Under the pieces are notes generated by a model. The model saw only the letters and a list, made by a program, of their open reading frames with translations, was not told the origin of the DNA and ran no database searches. The translations under genes and the position numbers were made by a program. This document shows, in pieces, positions 7,504-47,000 of a stretch of DNA of 64,000 bases. Numbering within the stretch: position 1 is the stretch's first letter; the number at the start of each line of letters is the position of its first letter. This stretch comes from Chlorella sorokiniana (Eukaryota > Chlorophyta > Trebouxiophyceae > Chlorellales > Chlorellaceae): NCBI GenBank assembly GCA_025917655.1, contig CP084612.1:1116001-1180000 (forward strand), in the 5' to 3' direction.

Positions 7504-7905
7504 GCGCACATGCACCAACACTGTTCCGGCATGACCCTTCGGGCAAACAGTAACCTATTTATACTGGTGACAAGCATGCAATTCAACACTGCACTTCTTT
7601 TGTAAGCAAATGAATGAAAGTTTCTGACGAGGTTGCATGCGGCATGGCAGGTGCAGGCTTGGGAGCTCACATGTCGCCCGCTGCCCCAGCCCAGGATGCC
7701 AATGCAGACCCGACAATTTGCAAGCCGCCAACAATAGTTACACTCATTGCAATCGACAACGTCGATCTGAATCGCCATCACCCTCCAGAAGCTCCACAGC
7801 GACAAACCGGCTGCCCTTTCGCCGACCACCCTTTCCCTGCGGCAGTAGCGGGTCGAAATAATGGCGACAGTGACCCGCCTTAGGTTAACGAGCCAGCCAG
7901 CAGCC
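7504..7905. other. Intergenic region with TGTAA signal
   Basis: A 400 bp gap between the GH32 and COQ5 genes. TGTAA at 7601-7605, about 100 bases after the GH32 stop, is the probable poly-A signal. No coding exon is supported here. Confidence 0.5.
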
Positions 7906-35560: not shown

Positions 35561-37219
35561 ATGGCGGAGGAGGTTGCTGAAGTGCTGGCAAGCTCCAGCA
35601 CATTCATTTTGCTGCTCTTGGTGGCAGCAGCTATCTTCGCTCTTGGTGAGGTCCCACAGCCGCGCCTTCTCCCTCTTCCACTGGCGATCCTGTACTCGTT
35701 TCACACTATAGATAGGGTACTGGGGTACCTCTTGCTCGCTAGCCCCCTGCGCCCTCTCACAGTCGCCATCACCGCCGCCGTACGCCGCCGCTGCCGCCCC
35801 CTGCGCCCTTGCCTGCAGCCCTGCTCAGGGTCTGGCTGTCGGGCCCCAAGGGCAACCTCATCCTGTTGGTGGGACCTTGCGATGCTGGCAAAACCACTCT
35901 GTTCCACCAGCTGCACGAGGGCAGCACCCACCTGGGCACCGTAGCCTCGATGCAAGCCAACGAGGCGGTGGGGCCGCTTGCGTCTGAAACGGTGGGCGGA
36001 CGCCAGGGGCCGCTTCTTTGCAACGCTGCTGCTGCTTGTCTCAGGATGCCGCGCCGCACCTCATGCGGTCAGCCCAGAAGGGCGTGTTGCCAGGCGCTGG
36101 CGCTTGCTAAGGATCCATCGCCGTCCAGAGCGGTCGGCAGCCGCTCCCACGCGCGACACCCACCCAGCCCCACCCTCGCCCTTAACCCGGCCTCGCAGGC
36201 GGCAGGCGTGGCCAGCGCCCGGCCCGTGCAGCTGGTGGACGTGCCGGGCCACCCCGCGTGCGGGGCCAGGCGGAACGCTACGCGGGCGTGCGGCGGGGGT
36301 GGTGTTTGTGGTGGACTCCGTGGACTTCATGCCGCGCAAGACGGAGGCCGCAGAGTGAGAGGGGCTGCGGCGGCAGCAACAAACGGCTGCACCGCACGCG
36401 TGCCTCGCCCGTGGAGGGCGGTTGAGGGGCGCCGCTTGGTTGGGCGGCCTGCGTCCTGGTTGCCTCGTCACCCCTGCCGGCCCACTTGCCATACATCCCC
36501 CGCCCCCACCCCCACCCCGCAGGCAGCTGTACGAGGTGTTGAGCAGCCCGGCGCTAGCTCGCCGCCGCGTGCCGGTGCTGCTGGCGTGCAACAAGCAGGA
36601 CATGGGCAGCAAGGCGCACACGCTGGAGTTCATCCGCAAGCGCCTGGAGCGAGAGCTGGATCAGGTGAGGGGGTGGACGGTGTTAGCAGGGCGGTGGTGG
36701 GGTGCGTGTGTGCTCTTTGGATGACTGTTGGATGACTGGGACCAGCAGGCAACAAGCATGGAGCGCGTTGTGCAGAAGGGCAGCAGACTGACTGATCTCG
36801 ATCGGCAGGCTCCCTCCGCAACTTGAGGCCTGCCTGTCTCCACGCCGCAGCTGCGCAGCACGCGCGGCGCCCTCAGCGACGTCAGCGGCAGCGGCGGCGG
36901 CGGCGTGCAGCTGGGCATCCCCGGAAAGCCTTTCACCTTTGAGTCGCACGCCAAGGCGCGGGGCACGCGCGTCACAACTGCCTCTGTGTCAGGTGGGTGG
37001 GCCGGGGAACAGAACAAGCGCATGGGGGGTGCTGAATTGTTGATGGTGGGCGCTACATGTTGCTGCCCACAAGTGGCACTCGCTGCTCGTGCCGGTCCGC
37101 TACCCTGTGGCAGCTGATGGCAAGCCGCTGCCCTGCCCCCTTTGATTGCTGTTGCAGCGGTGGACAAGGGCGGTGTGGCCGAGGTGGAGGCGTTCATCCG
37201 CAAGTGTGTGCCCGCGTGA
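35561..37219 (+). CDS. SRPRB: Signal recognition particle receptor subunit beta
   Basis: Membrane-anchored small GTPase of the ER that holds SRP receptor alpha. Exon 1 (from 35561) reads MAEEVAEVLASSS and one transmembrane helix (FILLLLVAAAIFAL). The GTPase motifs are visible in order: G1 LVGPCDAGKTTLF, G3 LVDVPGHP, the beta strand GVVFVVDSVDF, G4 LLACNKQDM, and the C-terminal FESHAKARGTRV then EVEAFIRKCVPA. SRPRB typically has this Asp-x-Pro-Gly-His G3 and no catalytic Gln. The stop is at 37217-37219. Single-base slips near 36255 and 36290, in C and G runs between G3 and the following strand, break the frame in the given sequence; flanking conservation argues for sequence error. Confidence 0.92.
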
Positions 37220-37666: not shown

Positions 37667-40353
37667 TCAGTCTTGGTCCCGGCAGGCCAGGCGGCGCTGC
37701 ACCAGCAGGTACCACGTCACCGCCCCCACCACCAGCACCACGCCGCCGACCTCGCACGCCCGCGGATGGGCTCCCCCAGCAGCGGGCCTGCGGCAGCAGC
37801 AGCAGGGACGACGCAAACCGCACCTGATGGGCGGCTGCTTTGAACCCAGTGGATGCTGGCCAGCTGGCTCTTGAAGCCGCGCTCACCCAGGACAATACAG
37901 AGTGCCAAGAAGGGTGCACGCATATCAACGGCCGGGCTCGCATGCAGCCGTGCGATGCAAGCTTGTCCCCAGGCCTCAGGTGCAGCCCCGCGCCCACCTG
38001 ACACCGCCACCGCCGCCACCAGACGCACCGCCAAAAAGGACGCCGCCAGCGGGGCGCCCAGCCGCCGGATGGTCAGCTGCTGCGCCAGGTTGGCGCCGTA
38101 GTAGACAGCGAGGGCCACGGCTGCCACCACTGCCCACTCCTGCGTGCTGCACACGGCAGGCAGGCCGAGTGGGGCGCCAGGGCGGCAACGCATCTTGCAC
38201 AGCAAGGGCTGGGAATCTCACTGGTGAAAACAAACCTGGCTGTTCCACACCTGCGTCCTCCCTGCCACACCTGCAGAACGCCGTTGCCGCCCCCGACCCC
38301 CACCCCAACCCACCCACTCCCCCACCTGAGCTGCCGCAGGCGGCGCCACTCCCGCGGCTCCAGCGCCAGCGCCAGTCCGGCGGACAGCACCACCTGCACG
38401 CCGTAGTTGATCCACAGGATGGCCTCCGCCGTCAGCAGCCCCACCGTGCGCTGCACCAGCACCATGTACCCCGCCAGGCTCAGCGCGGACAGCAGGGCCA
38501 GGGCGAGGCCGGCGGCGTCGCGCGCCGTCAGCCCCTCCAGCCCAAAGGACGTGCCGCCCTTGCCCAGCACCACCAGCGCGGAGCCTGGCCGGAGGATGGG
38601 CGGGCGGAGGGACGGGGAGCACATTCTGCAGCTGTCGCCGGGTGGCCCCTGTACGCCGGCATTGACAGAGCTCCCTTGCTGGAGGGCCGGCCTGCCGACA
38701 GGCACAGCGCGCCTTGGCCAAATTGAGCCCACCCGCGAGCATCACCGCCAGAGTGCGCCACAGGTAGGGCGGCAGCGGCATGGCAAACATCCAGCGGCAG
38801 ATGAAGGCCACAAAGAGGGGGCCCAGCATGAAGAGCCTGCGTCCAGGGGCGCCACGCACGCAGATGAGCGCCGGCCGACGAGGCCAATGGGGCGAGGGGG
38901 TAGCAGCAGCGCAGCAGCCGCCTCACATCTGGCACCAGTAGGCGTTGGTGAGGCGGGAGGAGAAGATGAGGGCCAGCGACAGGGTGGCCAGCGCCGCGGT
39001 GGAGCCTGCTTGGGGTTGTGGGAACAGGCGTTCAGATTGTTGGTAAGTGATGCCACCGTCCTGGTGTGCAAACGGTATGATGAGGAAGCCACAGGGGCGA
39101 AGAAGTGCGTGGCTGATCGGCTACGCCCTGTTCCGCCCTGGCAAGCAACGCACTTGCGGCCAGGGCCCACGGCGTGAACCAGCGGCGGTGCAGCGTGAAG
39201 GGCTTCAGCGTCAGCTGCACTCGCTCCTCCTCCCCTCTCCGCCGCCGCCGCCTCCCCCGCATCTTGCAGGAACGGCGAGGGCTGCCCCTCGGGAGCCTCC
39301 AAATCAGCTCCCCCATAAAGCCGCGCCCCCAGGCATTGCCTGCCTCCTGCTTCACCCCTTCAGGGCTCTCGGCGGTGGCCGACAGCAGCGGCTCGCGCAA
39401 AGCGTCGACCGCGACAGCACGCTGCCGCCTACCAAGGGGGCTGCGAGGAGTCACAGGTGGGAGGAGCTCTTGCTGCGCCGTCCAGCCCCACCGCGCTGGC
39501 CCCGCTGCGCCTACCCTGGGGCTGCTGGCGGCGGCGGCGGCGGCACCCGGCCCCCAGCCCCAGCCGCGCGTGCCGCCGCCAGCAGAGGGCCCCCAGGAGC
39601 GGGCCACACCCATGGCGGCCTCTGGCCCCAGCCCCAGCCGCGGCCGCCAAGCGCGGGGTGGCCGGGGCATAGTGGAGGCTGTCTGGGACGGTGGCGGGCG
39701 CAGGCTGTCGGAGGCTCTTGGGAGTGGCGGGGGCCGCCAGCGTGGAGCTCCTCGTCAGGCTCAAGGCCACCTGGACTGCCTGGGGCCGCGACGGAGCATC
39801 CAGGCCGCCGCTGGTGACGTCCTCAATCAGGGACGGGCGCTTCAGCAGAGCCCTGTGCCGCGCCGCCCCTTCGTCCGCCGCCCCGGCCTGCAGGGGCTGC
39901 AGCAGCGCCGCCGCCGGCTCGCCCTCCGCCTCCCGCCGCAGCAGGTGCAGCAGCGACTGCAGGCTGGCTGTGCGCCGCACCCTGCCCAGCTGGTGCTTAA
40001 GGTGCTCCAGCAGCAGCATGCCGCGCTGGGCATGCACACGCTTGCGACCGCGCTGCAGGCGGCGGGGGAGCGTGTGGAAGAGGAGGAGGCACACCGCCGC
40101 CAGCCCGTTCATCAAAAAGCTGAGCTGCAGGCCGGTCAGGGTGTGAGCTGCTCGGTTCTGCGGCAGCGCAGGCAGCAGGGCGTTCCCAGCATTTGGTCAG
40201 TGGAGAAGTGGCAAGTGGCCTTGGAGGGCCGCTATGAAACTCTCGGCCTGCCTGCAGGTAGCGGCAGATGACCGGGAAGGCGCCCCAGACAGCCTGGGTG
40301 CCCACGGCCAACAGCATCCACAGAGCCTTGGACCCAGCCTGTGCTTGTGCCAT
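37667..40353 (-). CDS. EamA/DMT-superfamily membrane transporter
   Basis: A polytopic carrier of the drug/metabolite transporter type; substrate unknown. The ATG at 40353 opens [13 protein letters not shown], then helix 1 with [16 protein letters not shown], the typical EamA start. Exon 2 continues [18 protein letters not shown] and then a very long hydrophilic insertion of about 200 residues, unusual for the family ([15 protein letters not shown], later [15 protein letters not shown]). After this come [133 protein letters not shown] and a last helix ending WYLLVQRR. Ten helices in two repeats are plausible. The stop (minus TGA) is at 37667-37669. Part of exon 2 is copied at 43.6 kb. Confidence 0.8.
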
Positions 40354-40750
40354 GCTGCCGCGAATGACTTGTTAAGAACAAGGCTTGATTTCAACACCAT
40401 GCCCGACTTGAAAGCCAGGTCAGGGAGCAAGCAAGTCAACAGGAAGAGGAGCAGGAGCAGGGAGAGGCAGGACTGGGGGAGTGGTTGAGGGCCATGACAT
40501 ATGAAAAGAGCACGGGGTAAAGCAAATAAGCTTGTGAAAGAAGGCAACCAGACAAGGAAAACATGTGAGCCCATGAGCGCCTTTCATGTGCGGTCGCTCC
40601 AACAGCAAAAGAGGTACCAACGCCGGCCCAATTTCCTCAGAGCAGTGTGTGATCAGACCAGGGACGCCTCGATGTGGCTGCTGCCTGTCCAGGCTACACA
40701 TCTCCTTTCATGTGTCTACCCCTCTTGCGCCTGCCAAGCCCGCTGTAAAA

Positions 40751-40755
40751 TTACA
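40751..40755 (-). terminator. TGTAA signal of small-gene copy 1
   Basis: Minus-strand TGTAA seven bases past the stop of copy 1. Copy 2 has the same signal three bases past its stop, which supports both as transcribed genes. Confidence 0.5.
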
Positions 40756-40761
40756 CACGCA

Positions 40762-41409
40762 TTACGGCTTGGCAGCCATGTACAGCGCTGCGGCCCCCAG
40801 GCCCATCACAATCCGGTCGAACCAACGTTCGTTGGTTGACTGTCGCAGAAAACGGTTCAGCTTCTCGTCCACACGACTGCTGAGGTCCTTAACGCTCTCC
40901 TGCGCCTGATCCACCTTCAGTTCCAGCTTGGCAAGCTTCATCCAGGACAGGATGGCGCTGCCCACCAGCGCGGTCACCCCCGCCACACTGAGCGCTGTCG
41001 CCACGGGCGCGCAGTTCCCGCAGGAAGCCCTGCACCCAGTTGGCGGTGCAGTTTGAGGCAGGCCACTTGGGCACGCCAAGACAGCACACCGAACCAGTGC
41101 ATTGGAGCGAAGCGTTCCACTCGAGTGTGCCTGGCAAGCACATTTTCGGGAATCAGAACAGAACTCGCCTGCGGGTGGCCATTGTCGCCACTGCCGCTGC
41201 CATCTCCGCCACCGCCACCGCCACCGCTTCCCCCTCGTCCACCGTCGCCGCCGCCTCGCAGGCTGCCTCCCTCCGGCTGCGGGACAGCCAGGGCAGCCGT
41301 CGGGGGCGCATCGAGGCCGCCCTGGCGCCACCGTGCGAGAGGGTTTCGTTGCGCGCCCGCGACTCGTTGAAAGAGGTGAGACACGCACCCCACGGCACGT
41401 GATATGCAT
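40762..41409 (-). CDS. Small membrane/coiled-coil protein, tandem copy 1
   Basis: An open frame of 215 codons from the ATG at 41409 to the stop at 40762-40764. The first two-thirds is Arg/Trp-rich low complexity and may be partly 5' UTR or intron. The C-terminal 80 residues look real: a hydrophobic helix (TALSVAGVTALVGSAIL), an amphipathic coiled coil (LAKLELKVDQAQESVK, then DLSSRVDEKLNRFL), then QSTNERWF and a second hydrophobic helix ending ALYMAAKP. I do not recognise the family. Relative to copy 2 it lacks 2 bases just before the first helix, so the upstream exon structure may differ. It lies downstream of the transporter's start region and upstream of copy 2, all on the minus strand. Confidence 0.5.
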   Translation of the reverse strand: MHITCRGVRVSPLSTSRGRATKPSRTVAPGRPRCAPDGCPGCPAAGGRQPARRRRRWTRGKRWRWRWRRWQRQWRQWPPAGEFCSDSRKCACQAHSSGTLRSNALVRCAVLACPSGLPQTAPPTGCRASCGNCAPVATALSVAGVTALVGSAILSWMKLAKLELKVDQAQESVKDLSSRVDEKLNRFLRQSTNERWFDRIVMGLGAAALYMAAKP

Positions 41410-42133
41410 GGCGAAGATGTGGACAATCTAGGAGGCGTGACAGAGGCGAACGAGGCTCAGGGAGAGGAGAGCTTCACAGCAGGCCTAGCACGCTGCATGG
41501 GCGTGCATGGCACCTGAGTGTCCCCTTTGGAGAGAGCTGGCATGTTTCACTTCTGTGCTTGTGGTATCTGTATCCATCGCACTTATTCCGTCCAAACCAG
41601 AGGGTCAGCGGCCAGGGCGCCAAGTGGCTTTGCGAGGATCCACCAACCTTCCCAACCCCACCTCCCCACCCTCACACCCGCCCACGGCCCCCAACATTCC
41701 AACACCCGAGCGCCGCCCCCCCCCTTCTCCCCCAAAAGCAAACACTACGCCCAAAGTGAAAGCCAAGCTCAAGCCAAAGCGTAGCTGTATTGGGGCCTGA
41801 AACCGGAGCCAGGTCAGGGAGCAGGCAAGCCAGCAGGAAGAGGAGCAGGAGCAGGGAGAGGCAGGACTGGGGGAGGGGTTGAGGGCCATGACGTATGAAA
41901 ACAGCACGGGGTCAAGCGAACCAGCTTGTGAAAGAAGGCAACCAGACAAGGAAAACATGTGAGCTTGAGCGCCTTTCATGTGCGGTGCCTTCAACAGGTA
42001 CCAACACCTGCCCAATTTCCCCAGAGCAGTGTGTGATCAGACCAGGGACGTCTTGATGTGACTGCTGCCTGTCCAGTCTGCACATCTCCTTTCATGTGTC
42101 TACCCCTCCTGCGCCTGCCAATCCCGCCATTAG

Positions 42134-42138
42134 TTACA
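42134..42138 (-). terminator. TGTAA signal of small-gene copy 2
   Basis: Minus-strand TGTAA three bases past the stop of copy 2, matching the position in copy 1 despite diverged sequence. Confidence 0.5.
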
Positions 42139-42141
42139 CGC

Positions 42142-42804
42142 TCATCGCGGCTTGGCAGCCATGTACATCAAGGTGGACCCCAGGCCCATCAAACACAAGT
42201 TGTACCAACGGTCGTTGGTCGACTGGTCCAGGAATAGGTCCAGCTTCCTGTCCAAACTACTGCTGAGGTCCTTCACGCTCGTGTGCACCTCGTCCAGCTT
42301 CGTGTGCACCTGGCCCATCTGCAGCTCTAGCTTCACCAAAATCCCCAAGTACGAGATGGCGCCGCCCACCAGCGCAGTCACCCCCGCCACACTGAGCGCT
42401 GTCGCCATCGGGTTGCGCAATTCGCGCAGGAAGCCCTGCACCCAGTTGGCGGTGGGTGCAGTTTGAAGCAGGCCACTCGGGCATGCCCAGAAAGCACACC
42501 GAACCAGTGCATTGGAGCGAAGCGTTCCACTCGAGCGTGCCTGGCAAGCACAAGAGGGGAACCAACAATCGCCTGCGGGTGGCCATTGTCGCCACTGCCG
42601 CTGCCATCTCCGCCACCGCCACCGCCACCGCTTCCCCCTCGTCCACCGTCGCCGCCGCCTCGCAGGCTGCCTTTTTCCGGCTGCGGGACAGCCAGGGCAG
42701 CCGTTGGGGGGGCGTACCGAGGCCGCCCCGACGCCGCCCTGCGAAAAGGTTTCGTTGCGCGCCCGCGACTCGTTGAAAGAGGTGAGACACGCACCCCACG
42801 GCAC
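42142..42804 (-). CDS. Small membrane/coiled-coil protein, tandem copy 2
   Basis: An open frame ending at 42142-42144 and open to about 42804 in the same frame as copy 1. The secure part is again the C-terminus: GFLRELRNPMATAL, a helix VAGVTALVGGAISYLG, a coiled coil LVKLELQMGQVHTK and LDEVHTSVKDLSSSLD, then FLDQSTNDRWYN and the end LMYMAAKPR. The coiled coil is seven residues longer than in copy 1, one full heptad. No in-frame ATG lies at the upstream end; initiation at the Met before ATALSV or splicing from an upstream exon is possible. Function unknown. The differences from copy 1 keep the reading frame, which argues for selection on the protein. Confidence 0.5.
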   Translation of the reverse strand: MPWGACLTSFNESRARNETFSQGGVGAASVRPPNGCPGCPAAGKRQPARRRRRWTRGKRWRWRWRRWQRQWRQWPPAGDCWFPSCACQARSSGTLRSNALVRCAFWACPSGLLQTAPTANWVQGFLRELRNPMATALSVAGVTALVGGAISYLGILVKLELQMGQVHTKLDEVHTSVKDLSSSLDRKLDLFLDQSTNDRWYNLCLMGLGSTLMYMAAKPR

Positions 42805-43149
42805 GTGATATGCATGGCGAAGATGTGGACAATCTAGGAGGCGTGACAGAGGCGAACGAGGCTCAGGGAGAGGAGAGCTTCACAGCAGGCCTAGCACGCT
42901 GCATGGGCGTGCATGGCACCTGAGTGTCCCCTTTGGAGAGAGCTGGCCTGCGTCACTTCTGTGCTTGTATCTTCGTCCATCTACCCGTCCAAACAAGGGG
43001 GTCAGGGCGCCAAGTGGCTTGGCGCGGATCCACCAACCTTCCCAACCCCACCTCCCCACCCTCACACCCGCCCACGCCCCCAACACCCCAACACCCCAGC
43101 GCGCCCCCTTTCAAAACAAAAACATAACCGCCGCATAATGCCCCCGGCC

Positions 43150-43620: not shown

Positions 43621-43960
43621 CCGCTATGCGCCGCACCCTGCCCAGCTGGTGCTCGAGGTGCTCCAGTAGCAGCATGCCGCGCTGGGTCAAGTACAAGGCA
43701 TGGTTTCATTACCACGCCCAAAGTGAAAGCCAGGCTCAAGCCAAAGCATAGCTGTATGGGGCCCAGAGCCGGAGCCAGGTCGGGGAGCAAGCAAGTTAAC
43801 AGGAAGTGGAGCAGGAGCAGGAGAGGCAGGACTGGGGGAGGGGTTATGGGCCATGAAATACGGGCACAGCAGGGGCAGCAAAAGCGCATCAGCTTGTGAA
43901 GAGAAGGCAACCAGCAAGGAAAACATGCGGGCGCTTGAGCGCCTATGCGATCGCCTCAAA
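43621..43960. repeat. Partial third unit carrying a piece of the transporter exon
   Basis: 43621-43690 copies 39967-40033, inside exon 2 of the EamA gene (shared stretch CGCCGCACCCTGCCCAGCTG). It is then joined to sequence matching 40374 onward, skipping exon 1 and intron 1 of that gene, and continues with the start of the direct repeat (AGCCAGGT at 43774) to about 43960. So the third unit contains a broken gene fragment plus repeat. Confidence 0.75.
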
Positions 43961-44050
43961 AGATACCAACGCGCTGCAAGAGCCGAGGCTGCTTTTAGTA
44001 GCTGCTACCAAGGCGTTTATTAGCATGCTGGCGAAAGCGGCGACACGGGC

Positions 44051-47000
44051 TCACGCCGCTCGCCGCATGTGCCGTCGCCGCCGCCGCACCTCCGCTGCGG
44101 CGCCGTCCTCGGGCTCTGGCTGCGTCTTGCGCCTGCTGCCCCCGTGGCCTTCGCCGCCATCGCCGCTGCCCTCAGCCAGCGTCGCTTCTGGCCGCTCGTC
44201 ATTGCCAGTCGAGGCAGCCTCGTCCAGCGCCTTGGCGGCTGCGATGGTGGCGTTCTTCAGCGGGCTGCCCGTGAACTTGACGGGGGTGGTCATGTCGATG
44301 TACAGCGGCTTGTACTTGCCCTTGTCCCGCCCCGTGGACACCCGGTGCTTGTACATGTATCGCTCGCCAAGCATGCGCTGCAGCACCTGCGGGCAACAGG
44401 CAGGCACCAGGGGGGGGCACGCCGGGTGGGAGGGCAGCCACCGAGGGTTTGATGCGCCGCTGCTGCAAGGCCACGCAGACCCCCTTCCTCCCTGAACAAG
44501 TTGAAGCGGGAGAGCCGTCGCCCTGCGGCCTCCCCCTCTCAATCCCACACACACATACATACATGCATACACACCCCACAGACGCACACACGCCGCCCCC
44601 ACCTGCAGGTTCCTGTCGTACATCTCGGCGCGCAGAGCGGCCAGCCCCACGGCCTTGGCCTCCCGCACCGCCGGCTCCAGCCCCAGCACCCACAGCATGG
44701 CCTCCACATCCGTCATGGGCTCATCCGCCAGGAACACCGCCGACTCCTCCAGGAAGCTGCGACGGTACCGGACAGCGCGCGGAATGCGTGAGGATCCCGA
44801 CAGCTTGAGGCAAAAGCGGCGGATGCGAGGAGCCGGCCGGCCTGAGAAGAAACACCCCGGGCGCTGCCAGCACCAGCGCCGCCGCCGTCTGCACCTGCCG
44901 ACCCTCCCCCGCCCCGCCCATGCCGCCGCAGCCCTGCCTCACTTGTAGCTCTTGAGCATGTAGCGGTGGGAGATGAGGGGTGTGTCGGCGATGAGGGAGG
45001 CGCCGATGGAGGAGGAGCCCTTGTTGACGTAGTAGGCGTCGGAGGCAAAGGCGGGGGCCACGGCGATGCAGCTGTGCAGTACCTCGTAATACTCCTGGCG
45101 GTACAGGGCGGCACAGCAGTGCAGGGCGGCAGCGGGAGGGTGTTAGTACTCCTGGCGGCACCGGGCAGCAAAGCAGCGCAGGGCGGCAGCGGGAGGGTGT
45201 GAGGGCAGTAACGGCCGGGGCAGGGCGCAAGGGCACGCTGCAACAGGCAGCGCAGCGGCAGGCACGCACGAGCGGCCTGGCCCAGTCAGGCTTGGCGAGC
45301 TGCGGCAAGCGTCCAGCACACCAGAGGCAGCGCATCAGGATGGAGGCACTAGCTGCCAGGGCAAGCTGCCAGAGCCCTTGACCAAATCAACCTGCCCAAC
45401 CTCTGCCCCCTCCAGCACACACCCCCGCGCACCTGGAAGGGCAGGGAGGGGTAGTGGCGCAGCAGCCCCGCCTCCACCAGGTCCTGCGGGAGCTCCAGCA
45501 GCACCTTGTTCTTGCGCCCGCCCGCCTTGCCCAGGATGGTGACCGACAGGTTGGCGGCCGCCAGCTCGGCGCGATGCGCCGCCAGCTCAGCAAAGATGGC
45601 CTCGTAGTTGCGCCGGGCCGGGTCCACCTTGCCCTGGGGGCGAACCAGGGGGCAGCGGCGGGGACGCGTGCGTTGAGACGGGTTGGCGTGGCGGTGGCCT
45701 GGCTGCGCAGGAGGCAGCACCCGCCCGCCGCCTGATGGCCGGCCAGCACGCCAGCGGCCGAGGCACCATGCCGCACTGCGCACCTGGATGCAGAAGCTGT
45801 CGCGGCTGCCGGTGAGCACAGCCCGCGGCGGCTCCGCGGTCTGCCAGCGCTGCGCGCGGTCGCAGGCGGGGTGCACCTCCTGCCAGGAGCCCGGGCGCAG
45901 TCCTCTGGGTAGATGACTGGCATCATGGGCGCAATCCAGTCCTGCTGGATCTGCAGGGGATAGGAGAGAGCGGTACGGGCCGAGCATGGAGCGCGGCGGG
46001 GTCAAGCTGCAGGCCACCTCCGCTGGCCGCGCAACCCCCCAACCGCAGCCGCAACAGCACGCCAGCGGCAGGGCAGCCCCGGGGCCCAGCGCGGCCGGCC
46101 TGCTCCCGCGGCAGCGGGCGCTCACGTCTCCCGCGCCCTGCGCTTCCAGTATCTCCCTCGCGTATGCGCCCACGTGGGGCGAGATGGTCAGCAGGCGCAC
46201 GTCGCCCGCACGCAGCAGGTCCACCACCCCCGTGGAGTTGAGGTACTCTGGGTTGTGCACCAGCGCGAGGTAGCGCTGCGGCAGGCCCAGGCTCAGCAGC
46301 TCGCGAAAGGTGGGGTCGTGGCAGGTGGGGAAGGTGGCAATCACGATGTTGTCGTACTCATGAAAGTGCTCGAAGAAACGCTCAAACTTCCTGCGCGGGG
46401 GGGGGGCGGGGCGGCGGCAAGCAGGGCTGGCGGTGGGGTTGATCGTGGCCAGCGGCAGAAAACAAGATGGAAGGGGCCAGCCAGCGGTGGGGACAGAGAA
46501 GGTGCCTTCTGTTGGCGGCACCCAGGGCAGCAGCCGCCAGGATTTCAAACATGGGCATGCCGGTGCGGCAGGCGCAGCGCAGGTTCCTGCCGGTACTCTT
46601 TGCTGGCGCCCATGCAAGCTGGCCAGCTGGCGTGGACGCCGCCGACAGGCGGAACAGCCAGGCACGGTGCTGGCCCGTGCTGCAAGCAACCGTCCCCGTC
46701 AGCCCATGTGCAGCTCCCCAACACTTTGCAGGGGGCTGCGCTGCGGGATGCGGCCACAACCGCCAGCAGCGGGCTCGCCTGAACCCTTTCCAGAAGTACG
46801 GGTTGATGACCTCGCCCATCTCAAACGGGTCGTCCCGCGTGAACACCGTCACGTTGTGGCGTAGCTTGACGAAATGGAAGACAGTCACCGCCACCACCTC
46901 TGTGTGGTACCTGCAGCAGGGCCCGAACCGTAGTCGAGCAGCGGCGGCCGCATAGTTCAGCGGCAAGCTTGGGAGGTGGCGCCAGCAATGTGCGGATTGC

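Follow-up and report, generated by a model that had tools for sequence, protein, structure and literature searches.

Alike flanks around a diverged core in a tandem gene pair of Chlorella sorokiniana, and the hairpin copies of its relatives

Protocadherin clusters and other tandem arrays contain both converted and distinct parts. Flanks kept alike by gene conversion around a peak of divergence are a described signature, for which the part of the review by Fawcett and Innan drawn on here gives the red and green opsin genes as an example (PMC3924837). As to inverted copies, in the portions of two further sources used here Drosophila hairpin-RNA loci act against Dox-type genes (PMC10317233) and young miRNA genes arise by inverted duplication (PMC5511227). 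We compared with these systems a tandem pair of units, A and B, that lies within a 64,000-nucleotide stretch of Chlorella sorokiniana DNA (C10:1116001-1180000, hereafter the window). The genome comprises 38.8 Mb in 15 contigs, on six of which the light-harvesting chlorophyll-binding domain gave 41 exon-wise matches; with the Piwi, RNase III and Dicer_dimer domains described below, these point to a photosynthetic eukaryote. The dip in identity between A and B mimics a racing protein; a resetting of its edges is the better account, and the adaptive reading is probably wrong.

Layout, divergence and coding potential of units A and B

End-to-end local alignment showed units A (40413-41720) and B (41807-43110), delimited by their mutual alignment and by repeat families, to be a head-to-tail duplication with a unit length of about 1.4 kb and the gene on the minus strand. 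On that strand the core of A (40765-41007; 81 codons in the frame PVATALS...YMAAKP) comprises a hydrophobic helix, a coil and a tail. The core of B (42145-42447, minus strand; NWVQGFLREL...YMAAKPR) is open from a likely splice acceptor to the stop, has an extra heptad relative to A and reads MATALSVAGVTALVGGAISYLGILVKLEL... coil ...DRWYNLCLMGLGSTLMYMAAKPR. Each unit has a conserved 5' block on the minus strand, that of A (41209-41480) belonging to a set of 14 or more genome-wide and that of B (42613-42886) being its counterpart; an ATG lies within this block in all 10 aligned copies of the family described below. To the right, a third, truncated unit (43711-43970, minus strand) consists of the 3' flank only, and a 64-nt repeat of a piece of the left neighbour (39967-40030) recurs at the right edge (43623-43686; 94%, repeat family D12). 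Elsewhere in the window we noted a 57-nt tandem pair, 89% alike (45087-45200), and a plus-strand open frame (35809-36735) whose match to the signal recognition particle receptor beta subunit family scores 27.4 bits, just over the cut-off of 25.

The first-pass annotation had described a duplicated unit with a diverged core between alike flanks, and local alignment confirmed this, with the dip falling where it had been seen. Counting substitutions only and excluding gapped columns, A and B differ at 50 of 725 sites in the 5' flank (6.9%), 53 of 188 in the core (28.2%) and 32 of 341 in the 3' flank (9.4%; core versus flanks, Fisher P = 1.2e-13). Ungapped repeat families gave identities of 96% (41302-41562) and 94% (40413-40570) in the flanks and of 75% (40751-40940) and 80% (40901-41003) in the core. 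The flanks average 91-93% identity, slightly less than the value of about 95% first put on them, and the identity is spread unevenly. The 5' flank holds 200 identical bp (41342-41541 in A, 42748-42947 in B), a probable conversion tract, although the run could come from constraint instead; none of 20,000 shuffles of that flank's 41 difference events produced one as long (mean longest run 71). In the 3' flank the A-B identity of about 90% is not much above the approximately 84% that either unit shows to the third, partial one.

The cores differ in length by a single 21-nt gap, which keeps the frame. The earlier statement that coding differences stay in frame and insert a heptad is therefore correct for the core, but not everywhere, since in the alignment of 10 copies A is alone in lacking 2 nt shortly after the likely splice acceptor. 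Because of this 2-nt gap the frame of A from the acceptor ends after 46 codons, whereas that of B reaches YMAAKP. The core and the start of the exon are in different frames in A, which may therefore be decaying. Across the six pairs formed by A, B and two relatives, c3 and c5 (pairs that are not independent), 9 of 12 coding-exon indels are multiples of three, the remaining three being the 2-nt gap of A every time; in the 5' flank such multiples number 15 among 37 indels, and in the 3' flank 2 among 14.

The sequence GTGCAG|G, which looks like a splice acceptor, is conserved upstream of the exon in 10 of 10 aligned copies, and the frame from it to YMAAKP is open in three of them (B, c3 and c5). 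In e1, e2 and d1 this frame stops ahead of the tail; c1, c2 and c4 carry breaks or rearrangements, with the tail frame of c4 shifted. Although the 5' part is conserved, its frame is moved from copy to copy by 1-2-nt indels. The predicted product of the small gene is a helix - coiled coil - tail protein, probably of the membrane. Both hydrophobic helices had been thought preserved: the first scores 2.0 in 19-residue hydropathy and is clear, whereas the C-terminal one is weak, at 0.7-0.9 for the same length and at most about 1.55 when 15 residues are taken. An AlphaFold model of B comprised two helices at a mean pLDDT of 54, too poor for a fold search, and a PDB profile search returned two weak matches (E 0.0004 and 0.004). 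Searches of Pfam and NCBIfam found no curated family above cut-off, sub-cut-off matches being mostly to coiled-coil or membrane families, and five loci gave no Rfam match at gathering score. Viral and prokaryotic origins were rejected: viral contigs, scanned with the single protein of c5, yielded 11 pattern matches and prokaryote genomes, scanned with that of B, 223, in neither case with a relative by tblastn. Two further observations concern the coil. In d1 (L011:4473-4823) it is longer and charged, and this copy terminates with MPGEAS ahead of the hydrophobic tail, tail-like sequence downstream staying untranslated; c1 and c5 contain 33-bp tandem repeats encoding an 11-residue coil unit, SIADLDTKVAK (L009:1683-1813, 1874-1975 and 7609-7706).

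Ages of core and flanks within a clustered family

The proposal to look for further copies in the genome was borne out. With the 301-nt 5' block as query we obtained at least 17 matches, of which 14 exceed 150 nt (12 on C10 and 2 on C4) and represent at least 14 loci, the other three being short (41-60 nt). An additional locus, C7:1732842-1733252, is a fragment with exon and coil sequence. On C10 the family forms four clusters, at about 1157, 1487-1492, 1516-1519 and 1565-1571 kb; the c cluster is, like A and B, head-to-tail, with a period of 1.3-1.5 kb. Ten of the 15 loci (A, B, c1-c5, d1, e1 and e2) were aligned and enter the trees and counts, while d0, f1, f2, f3 and the C7 locus, which are more diverged or rearranged, stand outside them. 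No title among the matches listed from the Chlorella, gene-conversion, hendecad-coil and hairpin-RNA literature describes the family.

Coil p-distances among A, B and c4 approach a star (A-B 0.29, A-c4 0.26, B-c4 0.30), whereas those of the 5' block do not (A-B 0.04, A-c4 and B-c4 both 0.26). As A and B are about as far apart in the coil as A and c4 and far closer in the 5' block, the core appears to be old and set between young flanks, the more so on the 5' side. In segment trees the A-B path is shortest in the 5' block (0.063), longer in the 3' block (0.124) and longest in the core (0.365); A and B share a stem of 0.307 in the 5' block tree, and in the core tree the A-c4 path (about 0.36) is like that of A-B. 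Support for A+B was 100/100 in the 5' block, 79/84 in the core, 97/96 in the 3' block and 86/87 in the first-helix segment. The grouping A+c4 was rejected by the 5' block (p-AU 2.7e-38) and the 3' block (0.024), and by neither the core (0.118) nor the first-helix segment (0.114). The flanks thus share a younger ancestor than the core, clearly on the 5' side and modestly on the 3' side, and gene conversion limited to the flanks, which the first-pass annotation had offered as one explanation, fits both these flank trees and the uneven identity. We also considered a swap of the c4 core into A, the two having a common coil length and a close coil start (86% over 35 sites). A recent donation by c4 is not supported, because over the whole coil the A-c4 distance of 0.26 is hardly below the 0.29 of A-B.

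Synonymous sites in the A-B core are as raised as nonsynonymous ones (dS 0.26, dN 0.25, ratio 0.94 with interval 0.49-1.99), albeit with a wide dS interval of 0.13-0.44, the low end of which is near the 3' flank divergence; in coil plus tail dS is 0.34. Among 17 pairs compared in the variable segment no dN/dS interval lay wholly above 1. Three lay below it, B-c4 (0.46, CI 0.23-0.87), B-c3 (0.51, CI 0.29-0.85) and c5-d1 (0.67, 0.38-0.99), and the other 14 included 1. Point values were below 1 in 14 pairs, 1.01 in one and above 1 in two, both with the short piece of c2 (1.46, 0.50-14.27; 1.36, 0.31-17.21). The constraint seen in B-c4 and B-c3 indicates that the family is or was coding. A ratio near 1 together with a lack of transcripts had been named beforehand as a sign of decay; A-B has such a ratio, whereas B against older relatives shows constraint instead. 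Compared with c3, c4 and c5, A gives a higher ratio than B, though not compared with d1, and the intervals overlap.

Of the 45 copy pairs, which are not independent, 40 show greater divergence in the core than in the 5' block; from c3 and c5, for example, A and B are 0.39-0.52 distant in the coil and 0.24-0.25 in the 5' block. Family-wide, the core may therefore change somewhat faster, or the 5' block may be constrained, a moderate difference in rate or constraint. Several pairs are mosaics. Between c1 and c2 there are no differences at 55 tail sites, 100 at 239 coil sites and 73 at 250 sites of the 5' block; c3 and c5 are identical at 56 tail sites and differ at 44 of 162 in the coil; and c2 and c3 differ at 19 of 276 sites in the 5' block and 77 of 162 in the coil. 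Exchange of segments thus seems to be a recurrent feature of the family.

Hairpin relatives

At 4 of the 15 family loci the coil occurs twice, in opposite directions. The f3 hairpin (L010:1039-1687, C10:1486538-1487186) is a whole palindrome with arms 91% alike; the others are those of c1 (L009:1713-1974, C10:1565212-1565473; 87%), d0 (L011:2700-3210, C10:1517199-1517709; 81%) and C7 (L013:1993-2288, C7:1732992-1733287; 80%). Predicted RNA folding energies are -635, -280, -407 and -214 kcal/mol for f3, c1, d0 and C7, respectively, with 84-93% of bases predicted to pair in the four hairpins versus 67-69% in the cores of B and c5. An inverted-repeat scan found the four hairpins in eight family stretches totalling 48,908 bases. 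The same script found none in 264,000 control bases (the window plus 20 stretches of C1, C2 and C3), nor did a second tool find any in the window. The probability that all four fall in family stretches by chance is 0.0006, a value to be read with caution: the control was picked after the hairpins had been noticed, and it lacks a match for tandem arrays, a kind of sequence that may in itself promote inverted duplication.

The hairpins of c1 and C7 are a common one, their antisense arms being 90% alike, whereas those of d0 and f3 are apparently separate, which gives at least three births; in three cases the hairpin lies behind the family's own 5' block. The C7 fragment (L013:1843-2288, C7:1732842-1733287) joins the first helix exon to the hairpin, is 87% like c1 over about 410 nt and sits in what we take, by the look of its translation, to be an oxysterol-binding-protein gene. 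The longest exact matches of hairpin arms to other copies are 42 nt for c1-c5, 24 nt for C7-c5 and C7-c3, 23 nt for d0-d1 and 17 nt for f3 to f1 and f2, the partners being mates in the cluster or c-cluster kin; no hairpin matches A or B over more than 12 nt. Mismatches in the four stems are G-U rather than A-C at 38 against 20 sites (P = 0.025; f3 11:5, c1 9:0 in an alignment with 66 gapped columns, d0 14:10, C7 4:5), an excess that is suggestive only.

Domain searches of the genome found Piwi above cut-off, RNase III above cut-off at two places, Dicer_dimer above cut-off and PAZ below it, so that the case for Argonaute and Dicer is one of domains only. At C1:1086348-1091110 a Dicer_dimer match above cut-off and a weak RNase III match share a strand and are separated by about 4.5 kb, marking a candidate Dicer gene. 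Self-silencing by the hairpin copies is possible: they might act on related members. A fuller scheme, which we put forward tentatively and regard as unlikely, is that the family regulates itself by RNA, small RNAs from the inverted coils silencing sister genes while unmatched cores persist and conversion renews the 5' part. We regard the hairpin relatives as the most promising lead of this analysis. An unnamed, clustered family whose copies break, mix and time and again turn into hairpins is of more interest than the A-B pair itself, and if small RNAs do arise from the hairpins, the family would show the birth of hairpin-RNA loci at several ages in what is probably a unicellular alga.

Explanations for the A-B pattern and comparison with known systems

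The alignments and trees suggest that the flanks of A and B were probably homogenised by gene conversion or unequal exchange that spared an old core. A and B would be tandem members of a clustered nuclear multigene family, in which conversion or unequal exchange between neighbouring units would keep the flanks nearly alike, while the coil and tail segment would escape exchange and stay at the divergence usual among members. A core swapped in from another member would leave a near-identical trace, and we count it as a form of the same process. An alternative is ordinary decay after a recent duplication, with A a drifting pseudogene and B working or also decaying. The 2-nt gap unique to A, the scarcity of copies open from acceptor to YMAAKP and the mostly higher dN/dS of A than of B agree with this, yet free drift would lift core and flanks alike rather than the core three- to fourfold, and the core of A is still 81 codons open; we consider decay unlikely as the cause of the pattern.

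Diversifying selection, by which coil and tail would be a fast-changing recognition surface set between flanks that merely record a recent duplication, seems quite improbable. The in-frame core differences, the varying coil length and the variability of the coil throughout the family speak for it. Against it, core dS, whether taken over the core or over coil plus tail, exceeds the divergence of the flanks by a factor of about 2.6 to 3.7, the A-B dN/dS is not above 1, and the coils of A and B are no more diverged from each other than either is from c4. The fast protein change under frame constraint that the first-pass annotation had also offered is likewise not supported, since core dS about equals dN and the A-B core divergence is no larger than that to other members. 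The comparison with c4 also tells against escape at the RNA level, in which coding copies would alter the coil, at synonymous and nonsynonymous sites together, to avoid small RNAs from their hairpin relatives. All four hairpins cover the coil, those of f3 and d0 also C-terminal sequence and that of f3 3' sequence, none extends to a 5' block, and the stretch diverged between A and B is the hairpin stretch; the genome moreover encodes Argonaute- and Dicer-type domains. The 12-nt limit on exact matches to A or B is compatible with escape or with irrelevance of the hairpins, and we judge escape very improbable. On present comparisons, the A-B pattern most likely arose because the flanks evolve in concert while the core between them is old, within a family that is mosaic and turns over fast.

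The pair resembles protocadherin arrays in its clustered copies and in the mosaic ancestry along the unit, and differs from them in that A and B are separate small genes with a recognition role that is conjectural, the results speaking neither for nor against it. Compared with the duplicates in the part of PMC3924837 considered here, selection that keeps A and B divergent is only putative and A is possibly broken; the likeness is that the flanks would be kept alike by conversion, with the coding segment as the peak of divergence. The family hairpins are candidate silencing loci, and any part of theirs in drive would be hypothetical, unlike the Drosophila hairpin-RNA and Dox loci as portrayed in the portion of PMC10317233 used here, and, unlike those loci and young miRNA loci, they match mates in their own cluster and not A or B. 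What they share with both, to the extent that PMC10317233 and PMC5511227 describe them in those portions, is an origin as inverted duplications of family members and the presence of Argonaute- and Dicer-type domains.
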